From Burkholderiaceae bacterium (GTDB lineage: Bacteria; Pseudomonadota; Gammaproteobacteria; Burkholderiales; Burkholderiaceae_C): a stretch of 64,000 nt of DNA. Position 1 is the first letter of the stretch, and every line of letters starts with the position of its first letter. The position numbers were made by a program, and so were the translations under genes. The notes beneath the pieces were generated by a model, which searched no databases, had not been told where the DNA came from, and saw nothing but the letters and a program-made list of their open reading frames with translations. The DNA lies in assembly GCA_017992055.1 (NCBI GenBank), contig JAGOPK010000003.1, positions 463,666 through 527,665 on the forward strand, read 5' to 3'. Shown here piece after piece: positions 9,586-37,068 of the stretch.

Positions 9586-9618
9586 ATCCCCGATCCCCAA
9601 GAACCCAAGGAGACCCCG

Positions 9619-10629: not shown

Positions 10630-11440
10630 TCTCAGCCTGCCCACCGGCCTGGTGGTGCTGATCACCGGTGCCGCCCAGGGCATAGGCCTGGGCCTGGCCC
10701 GGGCCTTTGCCGATCAAGGTGCGCGTCTGGTGCTGGGCGACGTGGACGAGGCCGGCGTGCTGGCCGCGCGCGACGCACTGCGCGCTGCCGGCCATGCCGC
10801 CGAGGCCTGCCGCACCGACATCACCCGCGAGGCCGACAACGCCGCCCTGGTGGCGCTGGCGGTGCAGGCCTATGGTCGGCTGGACGTGGCGCTGTGCAAT
10901 GCCGGCATCAGCCAGGTCAAGCCCCTGATGGAGCTGGACCGCGGTGACTGGGACCGCATGCTGGGCATCAACGTCACCGGCAGCTTTCTGACGCTGCAGG
11001 CGGCGGCGCGGCAGATGCGCCAGCAGCCGCCGCTGCAGCCGGGCCGGCCGCGCGGCAAGATCCTGACCATGGCCAGCATCGCCGGCCGGCCGGGCGCCGG
11101 GCCGATTGCCAGCGTCATCGCGCCCTACCGGGCGAGCAAGGCCGCGGTGATCAGCCTGACGCACAGTGCCGCCTACACGCTGGCGCCCGATGTCACCGTC
11201 AATGCCCTGTGCCCCGGCATCGTGGCCACCGAGATGTGGACGCGCATGGACCGCGACTGGACCCGGCTGAACGGCCAGGTCGAAGGCGAGGCCTTTGCCA
11301 GCCGCGTGGCCGCCATCCCGATGGGCCGCGCCCAACAGCCAGAGGACGTGGCCAACCTGGCGCTGTTCCTGGCCTCACCGGCCTCCGACTACCTGACCGG
11401 CCAGGCCATCCATGTCGATGGCGGCCTGATGATGAGCTGA
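10613..11440 (+). CDS. Short-chain dehydrogenase/reductase (SDR)
   Basis: The 275-residue protein has a Rossmann fold with the nucleotide motif TGAAQGIG near residue 17. NAG follows near residue 100, the catalytic serine in TMASIAG and the YRASK tyrosine-lysine pair. The C-terminal IHVDGG is typical of classical SDRs. D-V-D after the second strand (LVLGDVDEAG) suggests NAD preference. The GTG start at 10613 overlaps the DctP stop by 17 bases. In this operon it probably oxidises a hydroxyl group of the imported compound. Confidence 0.9.
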   Translation: MSVANNLSLPTGLVVLITGAAQGIGLGLARAFADQGARLVLGDVDEAGVLAARDALRAAGHAAEACRTDITREADNAALVALAVQAYGRLDVALCNAGISQVKPLMELDRGDWDRMLGINVTGSFLTLQAAARQMRQQPPLQPGRPRGKILTMASIAGRPGAGPIASVIAPYRASKAAVISLTHSAAYTLAPDVTVNALCPGIVATEMWTRMDRDWTRLNGQVEGEAFASRVAAIPMGRAQQPEDVANLALFLASPASDYLTGQAIHVDGGLMMS

Positions 11441-11442
11441 GC

Positions 11443-12300
11443 ATGCACGCTGCCGAGACCCTGAAGAACCTGCTGGCCAGCGGCCGCATCGTGCAGGCCC
11501 CAGGCGCCTACGACGCGCTGTCGGCGCGCATCGCCGAGCAGGCCGGCTTTCCGGCGGTCTACATGACCGGCTTCGGCGCCACCGCGACGCGCCTGGGCCA
11601 GCCCGACATCGGCCTGCTGACGCAGACCGAGATGTGCACCCATGCACGCGACATGGTGCGCGCCGTGGGCGTGCCGGTGATCGCCGATGCCGACACCGGC
11701 TATGGCGGTCCCAGCAACATCGCGCGCACGGTCGACGAGTACCTGCAGGCCGGCGTGGCCGCCATCCACCTGGAGGACCAGGTGGCGCCCAAGCGCTGCG
11801 GCCAGATGGCCGGCATCCGCCTGATGGCCGCGCCGGAGAACGAGCGCCGGCTGCGCTGCGCGCTGGCCGCACGTGGCCAGCGGCCCTTGCTGGTGATTGC
11901 GCGCACCGATGCGCTGCCGGCCGTGGGCATGGCCGAGGCGCTGGACCGTGCGCGCCGCTACCAGGGCTGCGGCGCCGACCTGGTGTTCGTCGACGGCATC
12001 AAGAAGATCGCCGAGGTCGAGGCCGTGGCACGCGCCCTGCCGGGGCCCAAGGTGGTGTCCATCGTCGACGGCAACGAGACCACGGCGCTCAGCGCCGACC
12101 AGCTGCAGCAGATGGGCTTCTCGGTGGTGTTCTATGCCGTCACCGCACTGTTTGCCGCGACCAGGGCCGTGCAGCAGGCCATGGCCACGCTGGCGGCCCA
12201 GGGCACGCCCAGGGACGTGCCGACCACGAGTTATGCCGACTTCAGCCGCATCGTCGACCTGGCCGCCCATCAGCGGCTGGACGAGCAGTTCGGCGCCTGA
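11443..12300 (+). CDS. Isocitrate lyase / PEP mutase superfamily carbon-carbon lyase
   Basis: The 285-residue protein has a TIM-barrel fold of the ICL/PEPM superfamily. Its motifs are the metal-binding ADADTGYGG, the segment AAIHLEDQVAPKRCGQ and IARTDAL. Superfamily members cleave or isomerise 2-hydroxy dicarboxylates (2-methylisocitrate lyase, oxaloacetate decarboxylase, carboxyPEP mutase). The catalytic-loop cysteine is present, but the usual KRCGH reads KRCGQ here, which may mark a different substrate. It starts two bases after the SDR stop. Confidence 0.85.
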   Translation: MHAAETLKNLLASGRIVQAPGAYDALSARIAEQAGFPAVYMTGFGATATRLGQPDIGLLTQTEMCTHARDMVRAVGVPVIADADTGYGGPSNIARTVDEYLQAGVAAIHLEDQVAPKRCGQMAGIRLMAAPENERRLRCALAARGQRPLLVIARTDALPAVGMAEALDRARRYQGCGADLVFVDGIKKIAEVEAVARALPGPKVVSIVDGNETTALSADQLQQMGFSVVFYAVTALFAATRAVQQAMATLAAQGTPRDVPTTSYADFSRIVDLAAHQRLDEQFGA

Positions 12301-12319
12301 TCCATCTTTGAAAGAACCC

Positions 12320-13243
12320 GTGAACACCACCGATCCCGTTGCCTACGCCGGCCTGTGGCCGGCCCTGCTGACCCCGCTGGATGCGGCGCTGGCCATCGAC
12401 ATCCCGCGCTTCGCGGCCCATGCCTGCCAGCTGCTGGCGCAGGGCTGCACCGGCGTCACGCCCTTCGGCACCACCGGCGAAGGCCCGTCGTTCAGCGTCG
12501 CCGAGCGCCAGGCCGGCCTGGAAGGCCTGGTCGCCGGCGGCGTGCCGGCCGGCCGCATCCTGGCCTCGACCAGCTGCGCTGCCCTGCCCGACACCGTGGC
12601 GCTGACGCGCCATGCGGTGGCGCTGGGCGCGCGTGCCTGCCTGGTGCTGCCGCCGTTCTTCCTGAAGGGCGTGCCCGAGGCCGGCATCATCGACTACTAC
12701 GCCCAGCTGGTGGAGGCGGTGGACGACAGCCGGCTGCGCCTGGTGCCGTACCACATCCCCCAGGTCTCGGGCGTGGCACTGACGCATGGCGTGATCGAGG
12801 CCCTGTTGCACCGCTTTCCGGGCCTGGTCATCGGTCTGAAGGACAGCGGCTGCCAGCGCGAGCCTTCGCTGGCCTTTGCTGCGGCCTTCATGTCGCGGCT
12901 GCAGGTCTGGGTGGGCAACGAGCCCGACCTGCAGACCCTGGCCGCCCAGGGCGCGCGTGGCGCCGTCAGCGGGGTTGGCAACATCGCGCCGCGCCTGGTG
13001 CAGCGGCTGATCCAGGGCGCGGCCTCGCCCAGCGCCGAGCGTGATGCGCAGGACGTGCAGCAGCTGCTGGCCATCCTCGGTGGCTACGGCCTCACCGCGG
13101 CCTTCAAGAGCACGATGGCCTTGCTCAGCGGCCACGACGGCTGGCGCCGCGTGCGCGCTCCGCTGGTGGCGCTGGACGATGCGGCCCATGCGCGCCTGAG
13201 CGCGCAATGGCAGGCCTTCGGCCTGGAGCGGCTGCGTGCCTGA
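12320..13243 (+). CDS. Dihydrodipicolinate synthase/N-acetylneuraminate lyase family aldolase
   Basis: The 307-residue class I aldolase carries the substrate-carboxylate motif GTTGEGPSF. The catalytic tyrosine lies in LVPYHIPQ, and the Schiff-base lysine in GLVIGLKDSG. Members form or cleave pyruvate adducts of sugar acids. I chose the GTG at 12320, which directly precedes the conserved N-terminus (GLWPALLTPLD) and follows a GAAAGAA tract; no better start is nearby. Adjacency to a lyase and a sugar kinase suggests degradation of a keto-deoxy sugar acid rather than lysine synthesis. Confidence 0.88.
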   Translation: MNTTDPVAYAGLWPALLTPLDAALAIDIPRFAAHACQLLAQGCTGVTPFGTTGEGPSFSVAERQAGLEGLVAGGVPAGRILASTSCAALPDTVALTRHAVALGARACLVLPPFFLKGVPEAGIIDYYAQLVEAVDDSRLRLVPYHIPQVSGVALTHGVIEALLHRFPGLVIGLKDSGCQREPSLAFAAAFMSRLQVWVGNEPDLQTLAAQGARGAVSGVGNIAPRLVQRLIQGAASPSAERDAQDVQQLLAILGGYGLTAAFKSTMALLSGHDGWRRVRAPLVALDDAAHARLSAQWQAFGLERLRA

Positions 13244-14189
13244 CAGCGCAGCAGCGGCCGAGCTGGTCTGCGTCGCCAGCTGGAATGCCGATCTGGTGGT
13301 GCGCGTGCCGCAACCCGCGGCACGTGGCCAGACCCAGCTGGCCAGCGGCTTTGACATCAGCCCCGGCGGCAAGGGCAGCAATGCCGCGGTGGCCGCAGCG
13401 CGCCAGGGCGCGCGCGTGGCCCTGGTGGCGCGCATCGGCGCCGATGAGTTCGGCCGCATGGGCCTGGCGCTGTGGCAGGCCGAGGGCATCGACGCCCGGC
13501 AGGTGGCGATCGCGCCGGGCGAGCGCAGCGGCGTGGCGCAGATCCAGGTGTTCGACGATGGCGACAACAGCATCGCCGTCTACCCGGGGGCCGGCGCCGG
13601 CCTGGGGCCACAGCATGCCGAGGCCGCTGCCGACCTGATCCGCGGTTCGCGCCTGGTGATGGCGTCCAACGAGGTGCCGCTGGCCTGCACCCTGCGGGCC
13701 TTTGCCATCGCCCGCGCCGCAGGCGTCACCACGCTGCTGAACCCGGCCCCCGCCGCGCCCTTGCCCGACGAGCTGCTGGCCCTGGTCGACGTGCTGACGC
13801 CCAACGAAGGCGAACTGCGCGCGCTGGCCGGCGCGCTGTGCCAGGCGTCGGACGAGGCCGGCTGCGCCGCCGCCCTGCTGGCCCGTGGCGTGGGCCAGGT
13901 GGTGGTCACGCTGGGTGCCGCGGGCTGCCGGGTCTATGGCGGCGACCAGGCTCTGTCGCTGGCCGTCGCCGGCCACCGCGTTCGGGTGGTTGACACCATC
14001 GGTGCCGGCGACACCTTCACCGGTGCCCTGGCGGCGGCGCTGGCCCGTGGCGAGGCCATGGCCCAGGCCGTGCACCTGGCCAACGGCGCCGCCGCGATGG
14101 CGGTGCAGGGCCGGGGGGCCATCAGCGGCATGCCGACACGGCAGGCCGTGCTGGACTGGCTGGCCGCGCGGCCGTCGCACTGTCCCTAA
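13236..14189 (+). CDS. PfkB/ribokinase-family carbohydrate kinase
   Basis: The 317-residue protein carries the N-terminal PfkB signature (PGGKGSNAAVAAARQGARV) and the C-terminal signature DTIGAGDTF with the catalytic aspartate. The segment NPAPAAPLPDELLALVDVLTPNEGEL matches ribokinases. It would phosphorylate a pentose or sugar-acid-derived sugar with ATP. The GTG start at 13236 overlaps the aldolase stop by eight bases. It is the last gene of the catabolic operon. Confidence 0.92.
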   Translation: MPDSAAAAELVCVASWNADLVVRVPQPAARGQTQLASGFDISPGGKGSNAAVAAARQGARVALVARIGADEFGRMGLALWQAEGIDARQVAIAPGERSGVAQIQVFDDGDNSIAVYPGAGAGLGPQHAEAAADLIRGSRLVMASNEVPLACTLRAFAIARAAGVTTLLNPAPAAPLPDELLALVDVLTPNEGELRALAGALCQASDEAGCAAALLARGVGQVVVTLGAAGCRVYGGDQALSLAVAGHRVRVVDTIGAGDTFTGALAAALARGEAMAQAVHLANGAAAMAVQGRGAISGMPTRQAVLDWLAARPSHCP

Positions 14190-14201
14190 GCTGGGTGAGC
14201 G

Positions 14202-14227
14202 CAGGGCTGCGGCAAGTGCCGGCCCTG
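14202..14227. terminator. Hairpin after the catabolic operon; possible terminator
   Basis: CAGGGC (14202-14207) pairs with GCCCTG (14222-14227). An inner CGGCA/TGCCG stem pairs across a two-base loop, with two unpaired bases on one side. No T-tract follows on the plus strand (GGTTAAAAA follows instead), so intrinsic termination would be weak. The position, just past the kinase stop and before tpsB, suits a boundary. Confidence 0.35.
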
Positions 14228-14235
14228 GGTTAAAA

Positions 14236-14261
14236 ACGCGCCACGTGGGGAACGGGCGCGT
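14236..14261. repeat. Inverted repeat in the tpsB leader
   Basis: ACGCGCC (14236-14242) and GGCGCGT (14255-14261) form a 7-bp stem with a 12-base loop. It lies about 25 bases before the GTG start of tpsB. It could be an operator or a leader hairpin, and it is distinct from the preceding hairpin. Confidence 0.3.
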
Positions 14262-14284
14262 CCGCCCGGCTGGGAGAAACACAG

Positions 14285-16018
14285 GTGAACGATGGGTCGC
14301 AGCGCATGCGCGGTTGCGGGCGGGCTGGGCCTGCCCATGGCGTCCCCTTCCGGGCGGTGGTCCGGGCGGTGGCCCGGACGCTGGTGCAGGCCTGTGCGCC
14401 GGCCCTGGTCCTGGCCGTGCCCGCCGTGGCCCAGCCGGCCGCGCCGCCGGCGCCTGTAGCGGCCCCGGCGTCCGCGCCCGGGGGGCCCCCCGCCGCCGGC
14501 TCTGCCGTGGTGCGCGGCTTCGAGGTGGTCGGCAATACGCTGCTGCCCCAGGCCGAGATCGACCAGGCGCTGGCGGCCTATCTGGGCCCGGCCACGCTGG
14601 CCCGGCTGCGCGAGGCCGCTGCGGCGGTGCAGGACCTGTACCGCCGTGCCGGCTATGGTGGCGTGGTGGCCTTCCTGCCCGAGCAGGAGGCCAGCGATGG
14701 CCTGCTGCGCATCCGTGTCGTCGAAGGCCGGCTGACCCGCGTCGACATCAGCGGCCAGCAGCAGTTCAGCGCCGCCAACATCCGCGCCAGCCTGCCGGCG
14801 CTGCGCGAGGGCAGCACGCCCGAGGTGCGGCGCATCGATGCGCAGATCCAGATGGCCAACGAAAGCCCGGCCAAGACCGTGCAGGTGCTGCTGCGCCCGG
14901 GCGCCGAGCCCGGCGAGGTGGCGGCGCAGATCAGCGTGGCCGAGCAGCCGCTGCAGCAGTGGACGCTGCGCGCCGACAACACCGGCAGCGGTCACACCGG
15001 TCGGCTGCGTGCCGCCATCGGCTGGCAGCATGGCAACCTGTTCGGCGACGATCAGGTGGCCAGCCTCGACCTGCAGACCTCGCCGGCGTATCCGTCCTCG
15101 GTGGCGGTGCTCAGCGGCGCCTACCGTGCGCCGCTGTATGCGCGGGCGCTGGCGGTCGATGCCTATGGTGCCTGGTCGGACGTGGATGGCGGCAAGACCG
15201 GCACCGCCGCCGGCGACCTGCAGTTCAGCGGCCGAGGTTCCGTGCTCGGCGCGCGCCTGTCGGCCTATCTGCCGCGCCAGGGCAATATCGACCAGCGCCT
15301 GGCCGTTGGCCTGGAGCTGCGCGACTACCGCAATGCCTGCAGCATCGCCGGCCTGCCCGAGGATGCCTGCGGCTCGGCCGGAGCCAGCGTCAGGCTGCTG
15401 CCGCTGAGCCTGGGCTACACCGCCCAGGCGGCCGGCGACATCGCCTGGAACGGCAGTGCCACGCTGCAGGCCAACCTGGGCAGCGGCGGCCGGCAGGGCG
15501 GTGCGGCGGCCTTCGAGGCGGTGCGGCCCGGCAGCCGGGTGCACTACGCCGTGCTGCGGCTCAACGGCATCGTCACCTTGCGGCCGATCGAGACCGCCGT
15601 GCTGCAGCTGCGTGCCAGCGCGCAGTACAGCGACACGCCGCTGGTGCCGGGCGAGCAGTTCGGCATCGGTGGCTCGCTCAGCGTGCGTGGCTACGAGGAA
15701 CGCGAGCTGAACGGCGACTGGGGCACGCAGTTCAGCCTGGAACTCAGCAGTGCCAACGTGGCCGAGAGCTGGTTCGGTCTGGCACGCACCGAGCTGCGCG
15801 GCCTGCTGTTTGCCGACGCCGGCTGGACCGGCTATGGCGATGGCAGCGCCTGCCTGGCCGGGCGCAGTGCCTGCCGCATCGGCGGCCTCGGGGCCGGCCT
15901 GCGCCTGGCCATGCGCCAGGCCCAGTTCAGGCTGGACCTGGCCCAGGCCATGGCCGGCGGCCAGCGCACACAGCGCGGCGCCCACCGTCTGCATGCCTCG
16001 TTCAGCGCCTCGTTCTAG
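14285..16018 (+). CDS. Two-partner secretion outer-membrane transporter, TpsB (ShlB/FhaC/HecB family)
   Basis: The 577-residue Omp85-superfamily pore exports the TpsA encoded next door. It has an N-terminal leader (about residues 30-50) and a proline/alanine-rich linker. POTRA domains follow (RGFEVVGNTLLPQAEIDQAL; IRVVEGRLTRVDISGQ). The rest is a beta-barrel with the conserved GIGGSLSVRGYEER motif, and it ends in phenylalanine (FSASF) as outer-membrane barrels do. The GTG start at 14285 follows GGGAGA. The stop is 24 bases before tpsA, so the pair is almost certainly co-transcribed. Confidence 0.93.
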   Translation: MNDGSQRMRGCGRAGPAHGVPFRAVVRAVARTLVQACAPALVLAVPAVAQPAAPPAPVAAPASAPGGPPAAGSAVVRGFEVVGNTLLPQAEIDQALAAYLGPATLARLREAAAAVQDLYRRAGYGGVVAFLPEQEASDGLLRIRVVEGRLTRVDISGQQQFSAANIRASLPALREGSTPEVRRIDAQIQMANESPAKTVQVLLRPGAEPGEVAAQISVAEQPLQQWTLRADNTGSGHTGRLRAAIGWQHGNLFGDDQVASLDLQTSPAYPSSVAVLSGAYRAPLYARALAVDAYGAWSDVDGGKTGTAAGDLQFSGRGSVLGARLSAYLPRQGNIDQRLAVGLELRDYRNACSIAGLPEDACGSAGASVRLLPLSLGYTAQAAGDIAWNGSATLQANLGSGGRQGGAAAFEAVRPGSRVHYAVLRLNGIVTLRPIETAVLQLRASAQYSDTPLVPGEQFGIGGSLSVRGYEERELNGDWGTQFSLELSSANVAESWFGLARTELRGLLFADAGWTGYGDGSACLAGRSACRIGGLGAGLRLAMRQAQFRLDLAQAMAGGQRTQRGAHRLHASFSASF

Positions 16019-16042: not shown

Positions 16043-19000
16043 ATGGTTCACGCCAACCCCCTGTCCAGCCCGCGTCGCCGGGGCGACGTGCCGCGGCTCA
16101 CGCCGCTGGCCCGAGGCCTGCTGGCCGCCTGTCTGCTGAGCCCGGCGCTGACCAGCCTGCCGGTACAGGCCGCCGGACCCGCGGCGCCAGCCTTGCCAAC
16201 CGGTCCCCAGGTCGTGCATGGCCAGGCCACCGTGGCCACGCAGGGCAGCCAGATGACCGTGCGCAACACGCCCGGCGCCATCCTCAACTGGCAGAGCTTC
16301 TCCATCGCCGCCGGCCATGGCGTCTATTTCGACCAGGCCAGTGCCAGCAGCAAGGTGCTCAACCGCGTGCTCGGCAAGGACCCGTCGCAGATCTTCGGCT
16401 CGCTGGCCAGCAATGGCCAGGTCTGGCTGCTCAACCCCAACGGCGTGCTGTTCGGCCGCGGCGCGCGTGTCGACGTGGCCTCGCTGGTGGCCAGCACGCT
16501 GCGCCTGGGCGACAGCGACTTCCTGGCCGGGCGCTACCGCTTTGGCGGTGGCGACGTCCAGGGCCAGGCCGCCGGCGTGCGCAACGAAGGCAGCCTGCAG
16601 ACCAGCTTCGGCGGCCAGGTCGTGCTGCTGGGCGACCGTGTCGAGAACGCCGGCGACATCCAGGCCCCCGGTGGCCAGGTGGCGCTGGCTGCGGCGCGCA
16701 GCCTGACCCTGGTCGACACCGGCCTGCCGCATCTGGCGGTGCAGATGGACCTGCCGGCCGGCGAGGTGCTGAACCTGGGTCGGCTGGCGGCGGCCGGTGG
16801 CCGTGTCGACGTCTACGGTGCCATCGTCAACCAGCAGGGCCTGGTGTCGGCGCAGACGCTGAGCCTGGGCGCGCAGGGGCAGATCGTGCTGCGCGCCTCC
16901 GAGACCCTGACGCTGGGCGAGGCCAGCCGCACCGAGGCCGGCGGCACGGCCTCGGGCCAGCGGGGCGGTGACATCACGCTGTCGGGCCGCGACATTGCCA
17001 TCGCCGGCGCCGCCGTGGTCGATGCCTCGGGCGAGGCCGGCGGTGGCCGCATCCGACTGGGGGGTGGCCTGCAGGGACGCGATGGCGGCGTGCCGAATGC
17101 CGCCACGGTGCGGGTCGATGCGGCCGCGCGCTTGGCGGCCGATGCCGGCAGCCTGGGCGACGGCGGCCAGATCATCGTCTGGTCCGACCACAGCACGCAG
17201 TTCCTGGGCCAGCTCAGCGCCCGCGGTGGTGCGCTGGGCGGCGATGGCGGCTTTGCCGAGGTGTCCAGCCGCCGCGTGCTGGGCTTTGCCGGCATGGCCG
17301 ACCTGGGCGCCGGCCTGGGTGCGACCGGCACCCTTCTGCTGGACCCGAGCTTCCTGGTCATCCAGGCCAGCGCACCCAACCTGACCGGCAGCGGCAGCCT
17401 CGACCTGAGCACGCCCAACCTGCTGTTCGGCGACCACGGCAGCATCACCAGCATCATCACCGCGGCGGCGGTGAACTCGCAGCTGAACTCCGCCAACGTG
17501 GTGCTGCAGGCCAGCGTGGACATCAGCGTCAACGCGGCCATCAGCGGCAGCCGCAGCCTGACGCTGCAGGCCGGCCGCGACATCATCGTCAACAGTGCCA
17601 TCAGCGCTGGCGGTGGCATCGTGCTGTCGGCCAACGACCCCGGTGGCACGGCCGGCGGCACCGGTGCCGTGCAAGTGGCGGCGGCGCTGAATGCCGGTGG
17701 CGGTGCGCTGAGCCTGAGCAACAACGGCGGCAGCGGCGAGCACCAGATCGGCGCCAGCCTCAGCGCGGCCAGCCTGTCCATCAGCGGCAATGCCCAGCTC
17801 ACCCAGGCCAGCACCTGGACCCTGTCGGGCAACTCGACGCTGGCGGGCCAGATCGGCGGCAGCGGCGTGCTCACCAAGGCCGGCGCGGGCACGCTGACCC
17901 TGACCGGCAGCGGCAGCTTCGCGCCGATGGCCGTGGCCGCGGGCACGCTGAACTTCAACAACGCCAGTGCCGTCACCCTGCCCAGCCTGACGCTGACCGG
18001 CGGCACCTTCGGCGGCAGCGGTGAGGTCGTCGTCAGCGGCGCCTTCGATGTCATCGGCAGCTATGCCAACCTGACCGGCAGCGGCAGCCTGACGACACTG
18101 GGCACGAGCACGGTCAACCTGGCCAATGTCAGCGGCGGCTACCTGGGCATGAACCGCCCCTGGACCAACAACGGCACGCTGAACATCGCCGGCGACGACT
18201 TCATCTACCTGGGCCTGCCCGGCGGGGGGGCGACGACGCTGACCAATGCCCTGGGCGCGACGCTGAACCTGAACAGCACGCACAGCCAGCCGCTGACGCA
18301 CTACACCGGCACCAGCACCGTCCACAACGCCGGCACGCTGAACCAGAACACCAGTGGCACGCATGCCATCGGCGCCAGCAGCTTCAGCAATGTCGGCACC
18401 GTCAACGTCAACGCCGGCACATTGACGCTGTCCGGCGGTGGCAGCGACACCGGCATCTACAACCTGGCCGCGGGCACCACGCTGGCGCTGAGCGGCGGCA
18501 CGCGCTCGATGGCGGCCAGCGTCGATGTGTCGGGACCGGGCACGGTGCGCGTGGACGGGGGCACGCTGAACATCAGCGATGCGGTGGGCACCGCCGACAC
18601 GCCGGTGGTCATCAGCGGCGGCACGCTCAACTTCAATGGCAGCACCACGGTGACGCTGCCGTCGCTGACCCTGCTGTCGGGCACCCTGGGAGGCAGTGGC
18701 AACGTCATCGTCGCCGGCGCCTTCGATGTCACCGGCAGCTATGCCAACCTGACCGGCAGCGGCAGCCTGACGACCTTGGGCACGAGCACGGTCAACCTGG
18801 CCAATGTCGGCGGCGGCTACCTGGGCATGAACCGGCCCTGGATCAACCAGGGCACGCTGAACATCGCCGGCGACGACTTCGTCTACCTGGGCCTGCCCAG
18901 CGGCGGCACCAGCACGCTGACCAATGCGGCCAATGCCACGCTGAACATCAGCTCGACCAGTGGCAATGCCCTGATCCACTACACCGGCACCACGGTGATC

Positions 19001-22000
19001 GACAACGCCGGCACGCTGAACCTGAACGCCAGCGGCTCGCACACGCTGAGCGCGACCAGCCTGCACAACAGTGGCTTGGTCAACGTGAATGCGGGCACGC
19101 TGGTGCTCAGCGCCAACGGCAGCGACAGTGGCAGCTATGCGGTGGCCAGCGGCGCCACGCTGGACTTCTCGGGCGGCACGCGCACGCTGGACACGGCCTC
19201 GTCGGTCTCGGGCGCCGGCACGCTGCGCGTCAGCGGTGCCACGGTGCATGGCAACGGCACGCTGGGCCTGGTCAACACCGGCGCGGCCATCGTCGTTGGC
19301 AGCGGCACGCTGAACCTGGGCGGCGCGGTCTCGGGCACGCTGGCGCCCACCAGCGTCAGCGGCGGCACGCTGAACTTCAACAACAGCAGCGCCGTGACCC
19401 TGCCCAGCCTGACGCTGACCGGCGGCACCATCGGTGGCAGCGGCGACGTCATCGTCAGCGGCGCCTTCAATGTCACCGGCAGCTATGCCAACCTGACCGG
19501 CAGCGGCAGCCTGACGACCTTGGGCACGAGCACGGTCAACCTGGCCAGTGTCAGTGGCGGCTACCTGGGCATGAACCGGCCCTGGATCAACCAGGGAACG
19601 TTGAACATCGCCGGCGACGACTTCGTCTACCTGGGCCTGCCCAGCGGCGGCACCAGCACGCTGACCAATGCGGACGGCGCGACGCTGAACATCAGCTCGA
19701 CCAGCGGCAATGCCCTGATCCATTACACCGGCACCACGGTGATCGACAACGCCGGCACGCTGAACCTGAACGCCAGCGGCTCGCACACGCTGAGCGCGAC
19801 CAGCCTGCACAACAGCGGCTTGGTCAACGTGAATGCGGGCACGCTGGTGCTCAGCGCCAACGGCAGCGACAGCGGCAGCTATGCGGTGGCCAGCGGCGCC
19901 ACGCTGGACTTCTCGGGCGGCACGCGCACGCTGGACACGGCCTCGTCGGTCTCGGGCGCCGGCACGCTGCGCGTCAGCGGTGCCACGGTGCATGGCAACG
20001 GCACGCTGGGCCTGGTCAACACCGGCGCGGCCATCGTCGTTGGCAGCGGCACGCTGAACCTGGGCGGCGCGGTCTCGGGCACGCTGGCGCCCACCAGCGT
20101 CAGCGGCGGCACGCTGAACTTCAACAACAGCAGCGCCGTGACCCTGCCCAGCCTGACGCTGACCGGCGGCACCATCGGCGGCAGCGGCGACTTCGTCGTC
20201 AGCGGCGCCTTCGATGTCATCGGCAGCTATGCCTACCTCACCGGCAGCGGCTCGCTGAGCACCCAGGGCACGAGCACAGTCAACCTGGCCAGCGTCAACG
20301 GTGGCTACCTGGGTCTGAACCGCCACTGGATCAACAACGGCACGCTGAACATCGCCGGCGACGACTTCGTCTACCTGGGCCTGCCCAGCGGTGGCACGAC
20401 CACGCTGACCAATGCGGCCAATGCCACGCTGAACCTCAGTTCCACCAACGCCAGCGCCCTGGTGCACTACACCGGCACCACCACCGTCCACAACGCTGGC
20501 ACGCTGAACCAGAACGTCAGCGGCAGCCACACGCTGAGCGCCAGCAGCTTCCACAACAGCGGCGTGGTCAACGTGCCCGTGGGCACGCTGCTGCTCAGCG
20601 CCAACGGCAGCGACAGCGGCAGCTATGCGGTGGCCGCGGGTGCGACGCTGGACTTCTCGGGCGGCACGCGCACGCTGGAGACGGCCTCGTCGGTCTCGGG
20701 CGCCGGCACGCTGAAGGTCAGCGGCGCCTCGGTCCAGGGCCTGGGTGCGCTGAGCCTGGCCAACACCGGTGCGGCGATCGTCGTCAGCAATGGCACGCTG
20801 AGCCTGGGCGGTGCGGTCTCGGGCACGCTGGCGCCCACCAGCGTCAGCGGCGGCACGCTGAACTTCGACAACAGCAGCGCCGTGACCCTGCCCAGCCTGA
20901 CGCTGACCGGCGGCACCCTGGGCGGCAGTGGCGACTTCAGCATCAGCGGCGCCTTCGACATCACCGGCAGCTATGCCTACATCACGGGCAGCGGCTCGCT
21001 GACCACCCAGGGCACGAGCACGCTGAACCTGGCCAATGTCAGCAACGGCTACCTGGGCCTGAACCGCAACTGGATCAACAACGGCACGCTGAACATCGCC
21101 GGCGACGACTTCGTCTACCTGGGCCTGCCCAACGGCGGCACGACCACGCTGACCAATGCGGCCGGCGCGACGCTGAACCTGGCCAGCTCGTACAGCCATC
21201 CGCTGGTGCAGTACACCGGCAGCACCAGCATCCACAACGCCGGCACGCTGAACCAGAGCGCCAGCGGCTCGCACACCCTCAATCCCAGCAGCTTCCACAA
21301 CAGCGGCACGGTCAACGTGCTCGCCGGCAGCCTGGTGCTGAGCGCCAACGGCAGCGACTCCGGCAGCTATGCGCTGGCGGCCGGCAGCACGCTGAACCTG
21401 TCCGGCGGCACGCGCACGCTCACGGCCGGCGCCAGCCTGTCGGGCCCCGGCAGCCTGACGGTCAGCGGCGCCACGCTGAATGTCGACACCGCCATCGATT
21501 TCAGCGACACGGCGGTGCGTGTCAGCGCCGGCACGCTGAACTTCAACAACGGCAGTGCGGTGACCCTGCCCAACCTGGCGCTGAGCGGCGGCACGGTCGG
21601 CGGCAGCGGCGATGTCATCGTCAGCGGCGCCTTCGATGTCACCGGCAGCTATGCCAGCCTGACCGGCAGCGGCAGCCTGACCACCCAGGGCACGAGCACC
21701 GTCAACCTGGCCAATGTCACGGGCGGCTATCTGGGCCTGAGCCGCAACTGGAACAACAGCGGCACGCTGAACATCGGCGGCGATGACTTCATCTACTTCG
21801 GACTGCCCAGCGGCGGCAACAGCACGCTGACCAACCTGGCCGGCGGCACGCTGACGCTGAGCAGCACCCAGGCCACACCGCTGGTGCTCTACACCGGCAC
21901 GCAGAACATCGTCAACGCCGGCACGCTGAACCAGACCGCCAGCGGCAGCCACGGCATCGGCCTGCCGTTCAGCAACAGCGGCACGGTCAATGTCTCGGCC

Positions 22001-25000
22001 GGCACGCTGGTGCTCAGCGGCAATGGCAGCGACACCGGCGGCTATGCGCTGGCGGCGGGCAGCACGCTGCACATCGCCGGCGGCACACGCACGCTGGCCA
22101 GCGGCGCCAGCCTGTCCGGCGGCAACCTGGTGGTCAGCAACGGCACCCTGCAGGTCAACGGCCAGGTCGACTTCGGCAGCACGCCGGTGAGCATCAGCGG
22201 CGGCGCGCTGAACTTCAACCAGGCTGCTGCAGTCACCGTGCCCAGCCTGAGCCTGAGCAGCGGCACGCTGGGTGGCAGCGGCGACGTGGTGGTCAGCGGC
22301 GCCTTCGACGCCACCGGCAGCTATGCCTTCCTGACCGGCAGCGGCAGCCTGACCACCGAGGGCACGAGCACGGTCAACCTGGCGGCCGTCAACGGCGGCT
22401 ACCTGGGCATGAACCGCCGCTGGATCAACCGCGGCCATCTGACCGTCGGTGGCGACGACCTGCTGTACTTCGGCCTGCCCAATGGCGACAGCGGCGGCAC
22501 CAGCACGCTGAGCAACCAGGCCGGCGCCACGCTGACGCTGGCCAGCAGCTATGTCTCGCCGCTGCTCACCTACACCGGCACCAGCCTGCTGGCCAATGCC
22601 GGCACGCTGGAGCTTGCGGCCAGCGGCACGCACAACCTCAGCCTGGGCGGTGTGCAGAACACCGGCAGCCTGCAGGTGGCGCAAGGGGCGTGGACGGTGA
22701 ACGGCACGCTCAGCCAGAGCGGGCTGATCCAGACCGACGCCGGCACCAGCCTTCGCGTCTTGGGCAACCTCAGCAACCAGGCCGGCGGCACGCTGGCCGG
22801 CACCGGCACCCTGATCGTCGGTGGCACGCTGACCAACCTGGGCACCATCAGTCCGGCGGGGGCCGGCAGCGCCGGCACGCTGAGCATCAGCGGCCATCTG
22901 GCCCTGTCCGGTGGCACGCTGGCCATCGACCTGGGCGGCAGCGGCGCCTCCGATCTGCTGGCCGTCAGCGGCAATGTCACGCTGGGCGGCAACCTCAGCG
23001 CCAACCTGCTGGCCGGCTACACGCCCGGCGTGGCCGAGCATGTGGCCATCGTCAGTGCCGGCGGCACGTCCAGTGGCGCCTTCAGCGGCACCGCACTGCC
23101 CGCCGGCTTCACCGCCGGCTACCAGCTGGCGGCCAACGAGGCGGCGCGCCTGATCTATTCCGGCAGCAGCGGTGCCAAGGTGTTCACCAATGCCGCCAAC
23201 GACCTGAACTGGGCCACGCCGGCCAACTGGAGCGGAGCACTGCCCGGCAGCACCGACAGCGCCATCCTCAGCGCCGGCTACGACGTGCTCTATGCCTCGG
23301 GCAACCACACCATCGCGGCCCTGATCATCGCCGGCGGCAACTCGCTCACCGTGTCGGGCGGCGCCCTGACGGTCACCGGCAGCACCACGCTGGGCGGCAG
23401 CCTGACGGTGTCAGGCAGCGGTGCGGCCACCCTGAACGGCGATCTGAGCGGCGCTGGCCAGGTGGCCGTGCAGGGGGGCAGCCTGCTGCTCCATGGGGCC
23501 TCCAGCATGGCCCGGCTGAGCCTTGGCGCCGGTGCCCTGGGCGGCGGCGGCAGCCTGCAGGTGAGCGAGGCCTTCAGCCGCAGCGCCGCCGCCAGCGTCG
23601 CGGCCGACTTCAGCAGCATCGGCATCACCCAGGTCAGCGGCGACCTGAGCCCGGGCGCCCTGTCGGCCGGCACGCTGACGCTGAACGCCCAAGATCCCAA
23701 TGGCCGGCTGGTGATCGACGGCCGCGTCGCCAGCGCTGGCGCGCTGACGATCCAGGCCGCCGGCCCGCTGCAGCTGGCCGGCAGCAATGCCGCGCTGGTT
23801 GCTGGCGGTGACCTGAGCGTCAGCGCGCACAGCCTGGACCTGGCCGCGCCGATCAGCGGCCAACGTCTGGTGGTCGTCGGCACGCATGGCGTGCAGCTGC
23901 GGGATGCCGCCCAGCTGAGCGCCAGCGCCACCAGCGGCGACGCCATCGTGCTCGACGCCGCCGGCACCGGGCCGTTCATCAACCAGGTCGGTGCCGGCGT
24001 GCTGAGCACCGCCGGCGGCCGCTGGCTGGTGTACTCGGCCGATCCGATGGCAGACACCGTGGGGGGGCTGGCGGCCAGCTTCCGCCAGTACAACGCGCCC
24101 TATGGCGCGAGCACGCCGCTGGGCAGCGGCAACGGTCTGCTCTACAGCCTGGCGCCCACGCTGAGCATCGGCCTGCAGGGCACGGTGGCCAAGGTCTACG
24201 ACGGCCATGCCGGCGCCAGCCTGCTGCCGGCCAACTACAGCCTGTCCGGGGCGCTGGCCATCGACAGCATTTCGCTCAACCCACCGGCCAGCGGCCTGTA
24301 CGTCGACGGGGGCAGCGCCTCCAGGAGCGCCGGCAGCGGCAAGACCGTGCAGGTGTCCGGCCTGACGCTGACCGCCAGCGACAGTGCTGCCGGCTACCCG
24401 GTCTATGGCCTGCAGTTCAACACCACGGCCAGTGCGCCCGTCGGCAGCATCACGCCAGCGCCGCTGGCCGTCGGCGGCCTGGTGGCGCTGGCCAAGGTCT
24501 ACGACGGCGGCACCGCCGCCAGCCTGGCCGGCGCGGCCACGGTGGCGCCGCTGGCCGGTGACCAGGTGCAGCTGGCGGGCAGCGCCAGCGCCAGCTTTGC
24601 CGACAAGAACGTGGGCACGGCCAAGCCGGTCATGCTGTCCGGCCTGGTGCTCAGCGGTGCCGATGCGGGCAACTACACGCTGCAGGCGCCTGCGGGCCTG
24701 CAGGCCGACATCACGCCGGCGCCGCTGGCCGTCGGCGGCCTGGTGGCGCTGGCCAAGGTCTACGACGGCGGCACCGCTGCCAGCCTGGCCGGCGCGGCCA
24801 CGGTGGCGCCGCTGGCCGGTGACCAAGTGCAGCTGGCGGGCAGCGCCAGCGCCAGCTTTGCCGACAAGAACGTGGGCATGGCCAAGGCCGTGACCGTGGC
24901 CGGCCTCACGCTGAGCGGTGCCGATGCCGGCAACTACACGCTGCAGGCGCCTGCGGGCCTGCAGGCCGACATCACGCCGCGGCTGCTCAGCGTGATCGGC

Positions 25001-26740
25001 CTGGCCGTGGCCGACAAGGTCTACGACGGCAGCACCACGGCCAGCGCCAGCGCCAGCCTGGGCGGCGCGGTGGCCGGCGACGCCCTGGGCCTGGCGCTCA
25101 GCGCCCAGTTCGCCGACCGCCATGCCGGCAATGCCAAGACGGTGGGCGTGCAGCTGCAGCTGAGTGGCGCCGATGCCGGCAACTACCTGCTGCCGGCGGC
25201 CAGCACCACGGCCCAGGCCAGCATCGGCCAGGCCACGCTGACCTATCTGGCCACGCCGGCCAGCGCACCGGCCGGAACGCTGCCCGAGCAGATCCTGCTG
25301 ACGGGCACGGTCAGCGGCTTTGTCGGCAGCGACAACCAGGCCAACAGCACCAGCGGCAGCCTGGCCTGGACCACCCCGGCCACGGCGGCCAGCCCGTCCG
25401 GCAGCTATGCCATCAGCGGCGGCGGGCTGGCCGCCGCCAACTACCGTTTTGTGCAGGCCGCCGGCAATGCGACGGCGCTGACGCTGGGCCCGCCCATCGT
25501 TGCCGAGGTGATCGCCGTGGCCGCCAGCACCCAGAGCAGCACGCAGACCGCCATCACCCAGGCGCTGGCCGTGGTTGCGCCGCCGGTCGAGATGTCCACG
25601 CCGACCAGCGGTCGCGTGCTCGATGTGCTGCAGTCCTTGAGCGTGGTCGAGGCCGGTGGCAACACCCCCACCTACGACAGCGTCAACCTGTCGCAGATGC
25701 AGCGCGACGAGATCCAGAGCCTGCTGGCCGCGCGGGCCAACTTCAAGCGCAAGGTGTTCGACGGCGGCATCGGCAAGCTGCAGATCGATCCGGCGCTGGC
25801 CGATGTGCGCGGCTGCCGCAGCGTGGCCGAGCTGAGCGGCGGGGCCTGCCTGCTGACCGCCGCGCTGAAGCAGGAGATCGCTGCCGAGCGTGCCCGCGCT
25901 GCCGCCGCGGCTGCGGCGGCCGAGGCCGCCGCGCGCAAGCCGGCCGGCCGCCGCGTGGTGCGCGCCGTGCTGCCGACCATCCAGCGCAAGCTGGCGCTGC
26001 TGATCGGCGTCAATGCCTACCAGGACAAGCGCATCCCGCAGCTCAAGGGCGCCGTGCCCGACGCACGCGGCGTGCGCGACGTGCTGGAGAACCACCTGGG
26101 TTACGAGACCACGGTGGTCGAGGACCCCGGCCGCGAGGCCATGGTGCGCGCGCTGAACAAGCTGGCGCTGGAGGCCGGTCCCGAGGATTCGGTGGTCATC
26201 TATTACGCCGGCCACGGCGTGGTCGTGCCCGTCACGGGCAAGGACGGCAAGGACAGCAAGGAGGAGCTGGGCTACTGGGTGCCGGGCGACGGCGACGTCG
26301 ACAAGCCCGAGACCTGGCTGGCCAACTCCGACATCGCCAAGCTGGTGGCCCTGGTGAATGCGCGCCAGGTGCTGCTGGTGTCGGACAGCTGCTATTCCGG
26401 CACGCTGGCCGGCAGCGAGCGGGTGCAGCTCGACACCCGCACCGATGCGGCCGACCTGCTCAAGCGCAAGGCCGCCGTGGTGATGAGTTCGGGGGGCAAC
26501 GAGCCGGTGGCCGACGTCGGCCGCAACGGGCATTCGGTGTTTGCCTGGTATCTGATGGAGACGCTGAAGAAGCTGTCCGACTGGAGCGTGGGTGTCAGCG
26601 TGTTCGACAGCGTGCGCGCGGCCGTGGCCAAGAGCCTGCCGCAGACGCCGCAGTACGGCGCCTCGCGCAGCGCGGGGCACCAGGGCAACACCGACTACCT
26701 GTTCGAGCAGCGGGAGATCGAGCGCTCGCCGACGCCGTGA
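16043..26740 (+). CDS. Giant TpsA exoprotein: haemagglutinin N-domain, seven long repeats, YDG repeats, C-terminal caspase-like (C14) domain
   Basis: The 3565-residue protein starts at an ATG with GGAG upstream. A long basic signal peptide ends near VQAAG (about residue 46). The TPS secretion domain follows (residues about 50-300), with NWQSFSI, the family motif NPNGVLFG (about 131-138) and the DLPAG segment. Residues about 633-2200 hold seven tandem beta-rich units of 224-248 residues (GSYANLTGSGSLTT, YLGMNRPWIN, LNIAGDDFVYLGLP). YDG/MBG-type repeats (AKVYDGGTAAS) fill about 2713-3050. After an alanine-rich linker, residues about 3313-3560 form a caspase-like domain. It has the strand LALLIGVNAY, the dyad histidine in YYAGHG (H3391) and the dyad cysteine in SDSCYSG (C3450). 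It is presumably exported by the upstream TpsB. The protease role is inferred from the intact dyad; its substrate is unknown. Confidence 0.92.
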   Translation: MVHANPLSSPRRRGDVPRLTPLARGLLAACLLSPALTSLPVQAAGPAAPALPTGPQVVHGQATVATQGSQMTVRNTPGAILNWQSFSIAAGHGVYFDQASASSKVLNRVLGKDPSQIFGSLASNGQVWLLNPNGVLFGRGARVDVASLVASTLRLGDSDFLAGRYRFGGGDVQGQAAGVRNEGSLQTSFGGQVVLLGDRVENAGDIQAPGGQVALAAARSLTLVDTGLPHLAVQMDLPAGEVLNLGRLAAAGGRVDVYGAIVNQQGLVSAQTLSLGAQGQIVLRASETLTLGEASRTEAGGTASGQRGGDITLSGRDIAIAGAAVVDASGEAGGGRIRLGGGLQGRDGGVPNAATVRVDAAARLAADAGSLGDGGQIIVWSDHSTQFLGQLSARGGALGGDGGFAEVSSRRVLGFAGMADLGAGLGATGTLLLDPSFLVIQASAPNLTGSGSLDLSTPNLLFGDHGSITSIITAAAVNSQLNSANVVLQASVDISVNAAISGSRSLTLQAGRDIIVNSAISAGGGIVLSANDPGGTAGGTGAVQVAAALNAGGGALSLSNNGGSGEHQIGASLSAASLSISGNAQLTQASTWTLSGNSTLAGQIGGSGVLTKAGAGTLTLTGSGSFAPMAVAAGTLNFNNASAVTLPSLTLTGGTFGGSGEVVVSGAFDVIGSYANLTGSGSLTTLGTSTVNLANVSGGYLGMNRPWTNNGTLNIAGDDFIYLGLPGGGATTLTNALGATLNLNSTHSQPLTHYTGTSTVHNAGTLNQNTSGTHAIGASSFSNVGTVNVNAGTLTLSGGGSDTGIYNLAAGTTLALSGGTRSMAASVDVSGPGTVRVDGGTLNISDAVGTADTPVVISGGTLNFNGSTTVTLPSLTLLSGTLGGSGNVIVAGAFDVTGSYANLTGSGSLTTLGTSTVNLANVGGGYLGMNRPWINQGTLNIAGDDFVYLGLPSGGTSTLTNAANATLNISSTSGNALIHYTGTTVIDNAGTLNLNASGSHTLSATSLHNSGLVNVNAGTLVLSANGSDSGSYAVASGATLDFSGGTRTLDTASSVSGAGTLRVSGATVHGNGTLGLVNTGAAIVVGSGTLNLGGAVSGTLAPTSVSGGTLNFNNSSAVTLPSLTLTGGTIGGSGDVIVSGAFNVTGSYANLTGSGSLTTLGTSTVNLASVSGGYLGMNRPWINQGTLNIAGDDFVYLGLPSGGTSTLTNADGATLNISSTSGNALIHYTGTTVIDNAGTLNLNASGSHTLSATSLHNSGLVNVNAGTLVLSANGSDSGSYAVASGATLDFSGGTRTLDTASSVSGAGTLRVSGATVHGNGTLGLVNTGAAIVVGSGTLNLGGAVSGTLAPTSVSGGTLNFNNSSAVTLPSLTLTGGTIGGSGDFVVSGAFDVIGSYAYLTGSGSLSTQGTSTVNLASVNGGYLGLNRHWINNGTLNIAGDDFVYLGLPSGGTTTLTNAANATLNLSSTNASALVHYTGTTTVHNAGTLNQNVSGSHTLSASSFHNSGVVNVPVGTLLLSANGSDSGSYAVAAGATLDFSGGTRTLETASSVSGAGTLKVSGASVQGLGALSLANTGAAIVVSNGTLSLGGAVSGTLAPTSVSGGTLNFDNSSAVTLPSLTLTGGTLGGSGDFSISGAFDITGSYAYITGSGSLTTQGTSTLNLANVSNGYLGLNRNWINNGTLNIAGDDFVYLGLPNGGTTTLTNAAGATLNLASSYSHPLVQYTGSTSIHNAGTLNQSASGSHTLNPSSFHNSGTVNVLAGSLVLSANGSDSGSYALAAGSTLNLSGGTRTLTAGASLSGPGSLTVSGATLNVDTAIDFSDTAVRVSAGTLNFNNGSAVTLPNLALSGGTVGGSGDVIVSGAFDVTGSYASLTGSGSLTTQGTSTVNLANVTGGYLGLSRNWNNSGTLNIGGDDFIYFGLPSGGNSTLTNLAGGTLTLSSTQATPLVLYTGTQNIVNAGTLNQTASGSHGIGLPFSNSGTVNVSAGTLVLSGNGSDTGGYALAAGSTLHIAGGTRTLASGASLSGGNLVVSNGTLQVNGQVDFGSTPVSISGGALNFNQAAAVTVPSLSLSSGTLGGSGDVVVSGAFDATGSYAFLTGSGSLTTEGTSTVNLAAVNGGYLGMNRRWINRGHLTVGGDDLLYFGLPNGDSGGTSTLSNQAGATLTLASSYVSPLLTYTGTSLLANAGTLELAASGTHNLSLGGVQNTGSLQVAQGAWTVNGTLSQSGLIQTDAGTSLRVLGNLSNQAGGTLAGTGTLIVGGTLTNLGTISPAGAGSAGTLSISGHLALSGGTLAIDLGGSGASDLLAVSGNVTLGGNLSANLLAGYTPGVAEHVAIVSAGGTSSGAFSGTALPAGFTAGYQLAANEAARLIYSGSSGAKVFTNAANDLNWATPANWSGALPGSTDSAILSAGYDVLYASGNHTIAALIIAGGNSLTVSGGALTVTGSTTLGGSLTVSGSGAATLNGDLSGAGQVAVQGGSLLLHGASSMARLSLGAGALGGGGSLQVSEAFSRSAAASVAADFSSIGITQVSGDLSPGALSAGTLTLNAQDPNGRLVIDGRVASAGALTIQAAGPLQLAGSNAALVAGGDLSVSAHSLDLAAPISGQRLVVVGTHGVQLRDAAQLSASATSGDAIVLDAAGTGPFINQVGAGVLSTAGGRWLVYSADPMADTVGGLAASFRQYNAPYGASTPLGSGNGLLYSLAPTLSIGLQGTVAKVYDGHAGASLLPANYSLSGALAIDSISLNPPASGLYVDGGSASRSAGSGKTVQVSGLTLTASDSAAGYPVYGLQFNTTASAPVGSITPAPLAVGGLVALAKVYDGGTAASLAGAATVAPLAGDQVQLAGSASASFADKNVGTAKPVMLSGLVLSGADAGNYTLQAPAGLQADITPAPLAVGGLVALAKVYDGGTAASLAGAATVAPLAGDQVQLAGSASASFADKNVGMAKAVTVAGLTLSGADAGNYTLQAPAGLQADITPRLLSVIGLAVADKVYDGSTTASASASLGGAVAGDALGLALSAQFADRHAGNAKTVGVQLQLSGADAGNYLLPAASTTAQASIGQATLTYLATPASAPAGTLPEQILLTGTVSGFVGSDNQANSTSGSLAWTTPATAASPSGSYAISGGGLAAANYRFVQAAGNATALTLGPPIVAEVIAVAASTQSSTQTAITQALAVVAPPVEMSTPTSGRVLDVLQSLSVVEAGGNTPTYDSVNLSQMQRDEIQSLLAARANFKRKVFDGGIGKLQIDPALADVRGCRSVAELSGGACLLTAALKQEIAAERARAAAAAAAAEAAARKPAGRRVVRAVLPTIQRKLALLIGVNAYQDKRIPQLKGAVPDARGVRDVLENHLGYETTVVEDPGREAMVRALNKLALEAGPEDSVVIYYAGHGVVVPVTGKDGKDSKEELGYWVPGDGDVDKPETWLANSDIAKLVALVNARQVLLVSDSCYSGTLAGSERVQLDTRTDAADLLKRKAAVVMSSGGNEPVADVGRNGHSVFAWYLMETLKKLSDWSVGVSVFDSVRAAVAKSLPQTPQYGASRSAGHQGNTDYLFEQREIERSPTP
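17937..22640 (+). repeat. Seven tandem units of 672-744 bp inside tpsA
   Basis: The marker GGCAGCTATGCC begins at 18056, 18734, 19478, 20222, 20966, 21644 and 22316, so the spacings are 678, 744, 744, 744, 678 and 672 bases, all multiples of three. Units 2 and 3 differ at only about eight of 248 residues; units 1, 6 and 7 are more diverged. The pattern indicates recent duplication or gene conversion in the middle of the array. Copy number may vary between strains, and short-read assemblies may collapse it. Confidence 0.95.
24180..25230 (+). repeat. YDG/MBG-type repeats inside tpsA
   Basis: Four successive segments carry KVYDG followed by a GADAGNY-type ending. The second and third, starting near 24465 and 24723, are offset by 258 bases (86 residues) and almost identical (AKVYDGGTAASLAGAATVAP). 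Such domains are common near the C-terminus of large secreted adhesins, where they form a stalk. Confidence 0.85.
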
Positions 26741-26758: not shown

Positions 26759-31420
<4,662 letters not shown>

Positions 31421-35551: not shown

Positions 35552-35727
35552 AAGAACCGTGCCGTGCCGGGAAGGCGGACCTTGTTCACGCCGACCTGGC
35601 TGTCCCGGCCGATGTTGCGGTGCGGCGCTGTCCGCTTTGCCAGCCGGGCTGGCAGCGGCGCTGCCGGTGGCTGGGCTATGCTGGCGGCTCGGCCGGCGTC
35701 CGCCGGCTGCGCCGCGGAGCTTGAGCC

Positions 35728-36015
35728 ATGTCCCATCGCCTGCCGTTTGCCGCGTTCAGTCCGGTGTCGCGCGTGCTGCTCGTGACCACGCTGCTGCTGA
35801 TGCTGCCGCTGCTGGCCATGCAGTTCAGCAGCGAGGTGCGCTGGGGCCCGCTGGACTTTGCCGCGGCCGCGGCGCTGCTGAATGCGGCCGGCCTGGCCTG
35901 GTTGTGGAGCCGCCGCCGCTGGCATGCGGCCCGGCCGCGGCGGCTGGCGGCGCTGGCCATCCTGCTGCTGCTGGCCGGGGTGTGGGCCGAGCTGGCGGTG
36001 GGCATCTTCGACTGA
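35728..36015 (+). CDS. Small membrane protein, unknown function
   Basis: This 95-residue protein is predicted to have three hydrophobic segments: VLLVTTLLLMLPLLAM, the stretch after WGPLDF (AAAAALLNAAGLAWLW) and LAALAILLLLAGVWAEL. Arginine-rich turns lie between the last two. It is the only plus-strand gene inside the hydrogenase locus and sits between the MCP-like gene and hoxB. No motif is recognisable. It is supported by hydrophobic periodicity and by its clean fit in the gap. Confidence 0.55.
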   Translation: MSHRLPFAAFSPVSRVLLVTTLLLMLPLLAMQFSSEVRWGPLDFAAAAALLNAAGLAWLWSRRRWHAARPRRLAALAILLLLAGVWAELAVGIFD

Positions 36016-36048
36016 CGCCGCAGCCGGCGCTGTCGGGCGCTGCCCGGC

Positions 36049-37047: not shown

Positions 37048-37068
37048 GGTCAGGCCTGGTGGTTTCTT

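Follow-up and report, generated by a model that had tools for sequence, protein, structure and literature searches.

We analysed a 64,000-nucleotide stretch of DNA (the window) from a Burkholderiaceae bacterium (GenBank assembly GCA_017992055.1, contig JAGOPK010000003.1, positions 463,666 to 527,665 of the forward strand), in which one open reading frame joins a two-partner secretion (TPS) exoprotein, TpsA, to a C-terminal caspase-like protease domain, Peptidase C14 (C14). We found that this fusion is a conserved family, with the same domain order, across many betaproteobacteria. As a tentative account, to which we assign a probability of about 0.4, we propose that the protein is a two-partner-secretion fibre with its own periplasm-facing caspase-like protease, which would free the fibre or the protease.

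The TpsA-C14 exoprotein

The initial annotation, made from the sequence alone, described a TPS exoprotein fused to a C14 domain. This description holds, as the TPS domain (Pfam, 100.9 bits; also TIGR01901, 78.9 bits) and the C14 domain (Pfam Peptidase_C14, 79.3 bits against a cut-off of 21.4, residues 3315-3540) lie in one frame (Table 1). No frameshift separates the two parts; the frame at 16043-26740 is open throughout, and its GC content by codon position (0.63/0.57/0.93) resembles that of the other genes called in the window. The N-terminal TPS domain and the adjoining cognate TpsB gene, separated from the TpsA start by 24 bases, identify the protein as a TpsA, and its export via TpsB is predicted from the sequence. 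An N-terminal export signal was judged by eye.

The YDG repeats and the alanine-rich linker do lie between TPS and C14 as annotated (Pfam, sequence), with YDG matching in four stretches (176.3 bits). In the self-comparison at a period of 248, segments of 62 residues were 77 to 100% identical to the next unit from residue 936 to about 1490. The PATR match was weak (Pfam, 23.5 bits, below the cut-off of 27).

The catalytic dyad, His3391 and Cys3450, is intact exactly where it had been placed, and the C14 model aligned with both residues. When solved structures were searched with a profile, the Cys3450 column fell on the cysteine mutated to alanine in 6w8r (Arabidopsis metacaspase 4, C139A) and in 8a53 (metacaspase 9, C147A), and the GHG motif aligned with the GHG of both structures. 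The two residues were invariant in all 81 family sequences. The domain has the C14 fold, and the protease is probably active; the NCBIfam model caspase_w_EACC1 gave only 76.8 and 73.3 bits against a cut-off of 140. The window protein shares the fold, the His-Cys dyad and the DSC motif with metacaspases and prokaryotic caspase homologs, but differs from them in that its C14 domain is fused to a TPS fibre. Metacaspases and MALT1 cleave after a basic P1 residue, which is the precedent for the basic specificity proposed below.

Table 1. Features of the window locus, and of the C37 locus of the same genome (positions with a locus prefix).
Feature	Position	Strand	Basis or remark
TpsB partner (outer-membrane transporter, ShlB/FhaC type), 577 aa	14285..16018	+	Pfam ShlB 72.8 bits, POTRA_2 57, Omp85 38.4
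TpsA-C14 exoprotein, 3565 aa	16043..26740	+	Open from ATG to stop, unbroken
TPS secretion domain, residues 51-287	16193..16903	+	Pfam PF05860, 100.9 bits
Fibre, 248-residue repeats from about residue 936	18851..21500 (bounds approximate)	+	Self-comparison
Two YDG-region units, 261 bases, 94% match, inside the four-YDG stretch	24448..24979	+	TRF
MBG_2 domain, residues 3086-3142	25298..25468	+	Pfam 35.2 bits
Pre-C14 helical domain, proposed periplasmic anchor	25685..25882	+	Cys pair C3258 (25814) and C3269 (25847)
Ala-rich linker, candidate cleavage region	25883..25984	+	Basic R3298, K3299, R3303, R3304, R3307
Peptidase C14 domain, residues 3315-3540	25985..26662	+	His 3391 at 26213-26215, Cys 3450 at 26390-26392
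Hybrid sensor kinase (PAS, HisKA, receiver, Hpt), convergent neighbour	26759..31420	-	Pfam; neighbour only
C37: kinase with TPR repeats	L125:612-3686	-	
C37: OmpA-like protein	L125:3981-4697		
C37: TpsB	L125:4815-6632		
C37: TpsA, C-terminal end	to L007:8455		Ends in Cys pair
C37: separate C14 gene	L007:8455-9873		

Distribution of the fusion

The initial annotation regarded the fusion as unusual; instead, it recurs. In a survey of 299 genomes of the family with a threshold of E 3e-65 or better, 17 genomes had a match, including G046 and G053, where the frames are cut short; short C14 forms in G095 and G270 scored just below the threshold. The search for other fusions and their neighbourhoods, which had been suggested as a check, was also run on wider relatives; the best 80 of 198 relatives from a scan of genome contigs were kept, and the scan gave 79 loci. 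Their labels are Rubrivivax, Inhella, Roseateles, Massilia, Nitrosomonas, Nitrosospira, Gallionella, Rhodocyclus, other betaproteobacteria or just Proteobacteria; one 'uncultured bacterium' and one metagenome-assembled genome called Chitinophaga complete the list. Inhella proteolytica 1Y17 and Massilia sp. Leaf139 are among the isolates with a family member. The relatives closest at the window locus are mostly Rubrivivax and other betaproteobacteria.

The 5' end is closed in 52 of the 79 loci, and TPS and C14 share one frame in 48 of these; the other four (L094, L115, L116, L118) have C14 without TPS. The remaining 27 run off their locus, and two of them have TPS. The window genome itself (5.9 Mb) has a second fusion, C39, in a frame of 1976 aa. 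An artefact of assembly or frame reading, for which the window gives no support and which would be exemplified only by G296, where TPS and C14 occupy two frames of a single contig (C2), is refuted by the 48 fused loci, which come from many genomes and include named isolates; we consider it practically negligible.

A split form also exists. At the C37 locus of the window genome, a separate C14 gene, in which no TPS match was found, lies directly behind another TpsA (Table 1). This type occurred in 12 of 250 genomes, and a Cys pair close to the stop codon terminates the upstream TpsA in all six whose C-terminus was inspected. At C17 of the same genome (G000), a stand-alone C14 gene (L009:7685-8638, minus strand) is divergent to a giant 'LEPRLLLSAD' frame (9537-16001, plus strand). 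In Comamonas, L116 (7226-10921) has TpsB directly followed by a 497-aa C14 protein with a Pro-rich N-terminus, a Cys pair and no TPS match, that is, a TpsB without an evident fibre.

Eight more distant places were fetched and inspected. Three are TPS-C14 fusions: L234 (same order), L233 (same class) and L230 (another class, by Pfam). The other five, from other classes of the phylum (L227, L228, L229, L231, L232), are giant proteins with an N-terminus of the 'LEPRxLFDG' type that end in C14; the two that were scanned (L227 and L229) hold DUF4347 and no TPS domain. By eye, these giant proteins have a helix like the pre-C14 helix, without the Cys pair.

Co-divergence of TPS and C14

Polymorphic toxins exchange their C-terminal domain. 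Among 50 complete proteins, each selected because it has this C14, the TPS identity and the C14 identity of protein pairs (medians 52.8% and 49.2%) correlated with r 0.82. The C14 domain thus co-diverges with TPS and is not a swapped C-terminal toxin. As the initial annotation had stated, no immunity-like gene was recognised beside the window gene, where the gene directly downstream is the convergent sensor kinase, nor among the recurrent neighbours of the family, although no dedicated search of immunity families was made. On these two grounds we rejected a polymorphic toxin as the main account. CdiA and polymorphic toxins resemble the window protein in the TPS N-terminus, the long repeat fibre and the enzymatic C-terminus, but differ in their immunity genes and C-terminal swapping. 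A passage in a survey of polymorphic toxins considers caspase domains as releasing peptidases or toxins, and C-terminal caspase domains as likely toxins in some of these proteins; its Tox-Caspase row lists type II, VI and VII secretion (T2SS, T6SS, T7SS) and PVC, but not type V (T5SS) (PMC3482391). Delivery of C14 into neighbouring cells, as a polymorphic or contact-dependent (CDI-type) toxin, is therefore very improbable.

Cys pair, linker and proposed location of the protease

After the start of TPS, the window protein has exactly three cysteines: C3258, C3269 and the catalytic C3450. With the window protein counted, 33 of the 50 complete proteins have three, and the remaining 17 between 4 and 9. 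The Cys pair was present in all 76 family sequences that cover the region, as C-x10-C in 66 and with tighter spacing in 10. Since C14 follows, the pair of the window protein is about 300 residues before the C-terminus. Over 250 genomes, a profile of the pre-C14 domain matched 19 times, in 15 genomes (at most 23 candidates scored per genome), and each match lay at a C14 locus, so that a generic anchor common to C14-less TpsA proteins is unsupported. The rows of the structure search span model positions 148-398 and thus barely cover this domain.

The linker contains K or R, the RK of strand 1 excluded, in 76/76 sequences; in 70 of them, such a residue falls in the last 12 positions ahead of the first C14 strand. 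In the structure model of the window protein, residues 3292-3301 of the linker have a pLDDT of 63, 3305-3308 (VVRA) form a confident strand, and RK 3315-3316 starts the first C14 strand.

In HMW1 and HxuA of Haemophilus influenzae, a C-terminal disulfide loop is described as staying in the periplasm and locking TpsA in TpsB (passages in PMC5422565, PMC8151025). Like the window genes, these are TpsA/TpsB pairs with a Cys pair at the end of the fibre part (PMC5422565), but in the window protein C14 follows the pair; the likeness is one of Cys-pair arrangement. In Pseudomonas aeruginosa, CdrA, the partner of CdrB, is thought to be held by a C-terminal 'cysteine hook' and released by the periplasmic cysteine protease LapG (excerpts of PMC11898600, PMC4694147), which would make it a Cys-held TpsA freed by a periplasmic cysteine protease, as in our proposal. 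LapG differs in being separate, transglutaminase-like and controlled by c-di-GMP, whereas the window protease is a C14 within the fibre chain. The conserved Cys pair, the likeness to HMW1, HxuA and CdrA, and the split form behind a Cys-pair TpsA point to the periplasm. By this analogy, C14 would lie on the periplasmic side, anchored by the Cys pair, and surface display appears less likely.

Proposed mechanism

The functional steps below are proposed from the domain order, the Cys pair, the linker and the dyad, as seen in the sequence and in the structure model. TpsB would thread the fibre outward, N-terminus first. The Cys pair would then close a small disulfide loop and, on the model of HMW1 and HxuA, halt the chain in TpsB, leaving the fibre outside while C14 would fold in the periplasm. 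A trigger, be it an envelope signal or the fibre being pulled or bound, would lead C14 to cut the linker or the anchor behind basic residues. Either the fibre or the protease would be set free by this cut, in a manner comparable to the release of CdrA by LapG, a separate periplasmic protease. Where relatives encode an OmpA-like protein and a transmembrane Ser/Thr kinase next to the fibre gene, contact could also be signalled inward by such a cleavage. We favour release as the function of the window protein, and extend the argument to signalling for relatives only.

Several observations weigh against this proposal. Small disulfide loops should not hinder outer-membrane translocation, according to a passage in PMC8151025, so that the Cys pair need not plug TpsB. 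The pre-C14 domain was found solely with C14 and is not a generic anchor, and the Cys pair is missing from L230, the fusion from another class. For the split C14, a signal peptide was judged only by eye, from three N-termini, and a hydropathy scan of the C37 C14 found no segment over the threshold. The last 12 positions ahead of C14 strand 1 lack both K and R in 6 of 76 sequences. With the VVRA strand and the RK in strand 1, only part of the linker looks exposed in the model. Finally, C14 also terminates the giant DUF4347 proteins without a TPS domain (L227, L229).

Some of these points would suit a surface protease, in which the whole chain passes through TpsB and C14, outside the cell and either bound or shed, cuts proteins of a neighbour, prey or the matrix. 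Besides the passable small loops and the non-TPS giants ending in C14, this account could draw on LepA, which is described as a TPS-exported protease in a passage of PMC5422565. Against it stand the conserved Cys pair right before C14, the split C14 form without a TPS domain and the OmpA-like and membrane-kinase genes beside relatives, and we regard it as rather unlikely. The initial annotation had pictured a protease displayed on a stalk of roughly 3300 residues as a surface protease or contact effector; this part of it is unsupported, as C14 co-diverges with TPS and lies behind a conserved Cys pair that resembles the HMW1/HxuA anchor.

Neighbouring genes

Neighbour profiles were built from the family loci and applied to 81 loci (the 79 loci, the window and C39); despite this origin, they recognised the divergent C37 OmpA (1e-29) and a different kinase (1e-13). 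We found TpsB in 53 of the 81 loci, an OmpA-like gene in 35, a Ser/Thr kinase gene in 19 and TssA, TssB, TssM or TagF of the type VI secretion system (T6SS) in 12. None of the three neighbour types other than TpsB occurred in 29 clean control loci with C14-less TPS genes (OmpA 0, kinase 0, T6SS 0; Fisher p 3e-6, 0.003 and 0.03, respectively). When L158, L159, L160 and L162 were added, the controls had OmpA in 1/33, kinase in 1/33 and T6SS in 2/33 (p 1e-5, 0.007 and 0.34); with L159 and L160 counted as controls, the T6SS link at the locus level is thus not significant. These p values ignore shared ancestry and the shape of the locus windows.

The controls came from 50 TPS rows in 15 genomes, of which 16 were counted as C14 fusions (G296:C2 in two frames); one row below the cut-off was left out, and 16 + 17 control loci were fetched. 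The 29 controls are 11 + 15 + 3 from the window genome; some of their windows are cut by contig ends, and in the group of 15 the gene was read at its two ends only. L163 (split C14, T6SS), L162 (truncated), L159 and L160 (truncated, beside TssA/TssB), and L172/L173 and L174/L175 (split C14 with OmpA) were left out. So was L158, which has OmpA and kinase genes and whose TPS frame closes about 60 bases from a contig end, in a YDG stretch; another contig end cuts a C14 frame of the same genome, and the two frames were assumed, without proof, to be halves of one gene.

VipA, the T6SS sheath gene, was present in 13 of the 17 genomes with a fusion and in 88 of the 282 without (p 2.7e-4), or in 13/19 and 88/280 (p 0.002) when G095 and G270, which lack VipA, were included. 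TPS genes without a fused C14 also lie beside VipA in G195, G078 and G183; of these three loci, L163 has a split C14 right behind, and L159 and L160 run off their contigs. The split C14 is about 13-16 kb from VipA in G183, G081, G192 and G238.

The arrangement of the T6SS genes varies. TssA/TssB are divergent in L056, L074 and L087, TssA is upstream on the other strand in L077 and L079, and T6SS genes are co-directional behind the fibre gene in L064 and L069. The order TpsA-C14, FHA, PP2C, OmpA, kinase, TagF, TssM recurs in L067, L082, L089 and L117, and in L072 with an extra kinase gene before FHA; in L234 the order holds up to the kinase. The L079 kinase has one membrane segment between the kinase domain and DUF4384, and the L072 kinase match has one at a similar place; the C39 kinase of the window genome had no membrane segment over the threshold. 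The C37 pair is adjoined by OmpA and kinase genes, the latter with TPR repeats.

A 'RTRS' motif in OmpA was considered as a C14 substrate site and rejected, since it occurs in single sequences only and the consensus has just 'TRg'. At L056 (12523-13647) and 10 other loci, a protein of about 375 aa is encoded, its gene in most cases following that of the OmpA-like protein. In L056 it carries a single membrane segment near the N-terminus and a HELSH (HExxH-type) motif, and it gave no Pfam or NCBIfam match.

Possible signalling and its limits for the window

These neighbours would suit a signalling protease, with C14, the OmpA-like protein and the transmembrane kinase forming an envelope-spanning contact sensor in which cleavage would activate the kinase, and T6SS where present. 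The enrichment over 0/29 controls, the recurring gene order and the membrane segment of the L079 kinase favour it, as does the activation elsewhere of the T6SS kinase PpkA through periplasmic TagR or RtkS (passage in PMC10482370). Nitrosomonas and Nitrosospira loci with kinase, PP2C, FHA and TagF genes beside TpsA-C14 resemble the PpkA-PppA-Fha control of T6SS; they differ in that TpsA-C14 and the OmpA-like protein sit where the periplasmic activators would be expected, and this arrangement is absent at the window locus. The p value of 0.34 with 33 controls and the shared ancestry of the rows, which the p values ignore, argue against it.

The window itself also speaks against it. Its locus has no OmpA-like, Ser/Thr kinase or type VI neighbour, and its genome has no VipA; on these grounds we rejected a T6SS link for the window locus. 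A tree built from 71 C14 domains places the window protein among 18 rows that form a clade (support 99/96). None of these rows has an OmpA or T6SS label, although six of them run off their locus; on the other side of the fork, 17 of 19 rows (94/65) carry one. On the labelled rows of the tree, 10 changes are needed for the T6SS label; shuffled labels need no more, so it is scattered. In the window clade, L050 has a kinase match, and L048 and L049 have an FHA match nearby. With an unlabelled clade and a genome without VipA, the signalling idea rests on relatives and paralogs, and we consider it unlikely.

Its fullest version, an envelope-spanning contact sensor with TpsA-C14 as the outer part of a touch-triggered bacterial protease cascade, appears a little more doubtful still. 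Here the fibre would pull on the disulfide-plugged TpsB and switch on the periplasmic C14, which would cut; the peptidoglycan-binding OmpA-like protein would position C14, and the transmembrane kinase would relay inward. In several lineages the signal might reach type VI secretion via FHA phosphorylation.

At 32860-38322 (minus strand) of the window, genes resemble hydrogenase subunits, by eye from the first residues.

Relation to previous work and significance

No paper recognised as describing TpsA-C14 fusions was found among the matches listed from open-licence PMC, where a search for CHAT with hemagglutinin gave no paper. The words 'hemagglutin' and 'FHA' are absent from the main text of a 2012 survey of prokaryotic caspases (PMC3501461). 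Closest to the fusion comes a 2005 Campylobacter genome paper, in which a legend of the supporting material mentions weak metacaspase or toxin matches for a figure of TpsB and FHA-like genes; in this legend, the metacaspase-type matches are separate proteins (PMC539331). Since both domains are annotated, the architecture may be visible in databases without a study.

Bacterial caspase homologs are common; to our knowledge, few of them have a known substrate or trigger. The fixed place of C14, its likely substrate in the same chain and the recurring partner genes in relatives make its role directly testable. If C14 is periplasmic, the family would hold TPS fibres and release them by self-cleavage, and might be a new input to type VI secretion.
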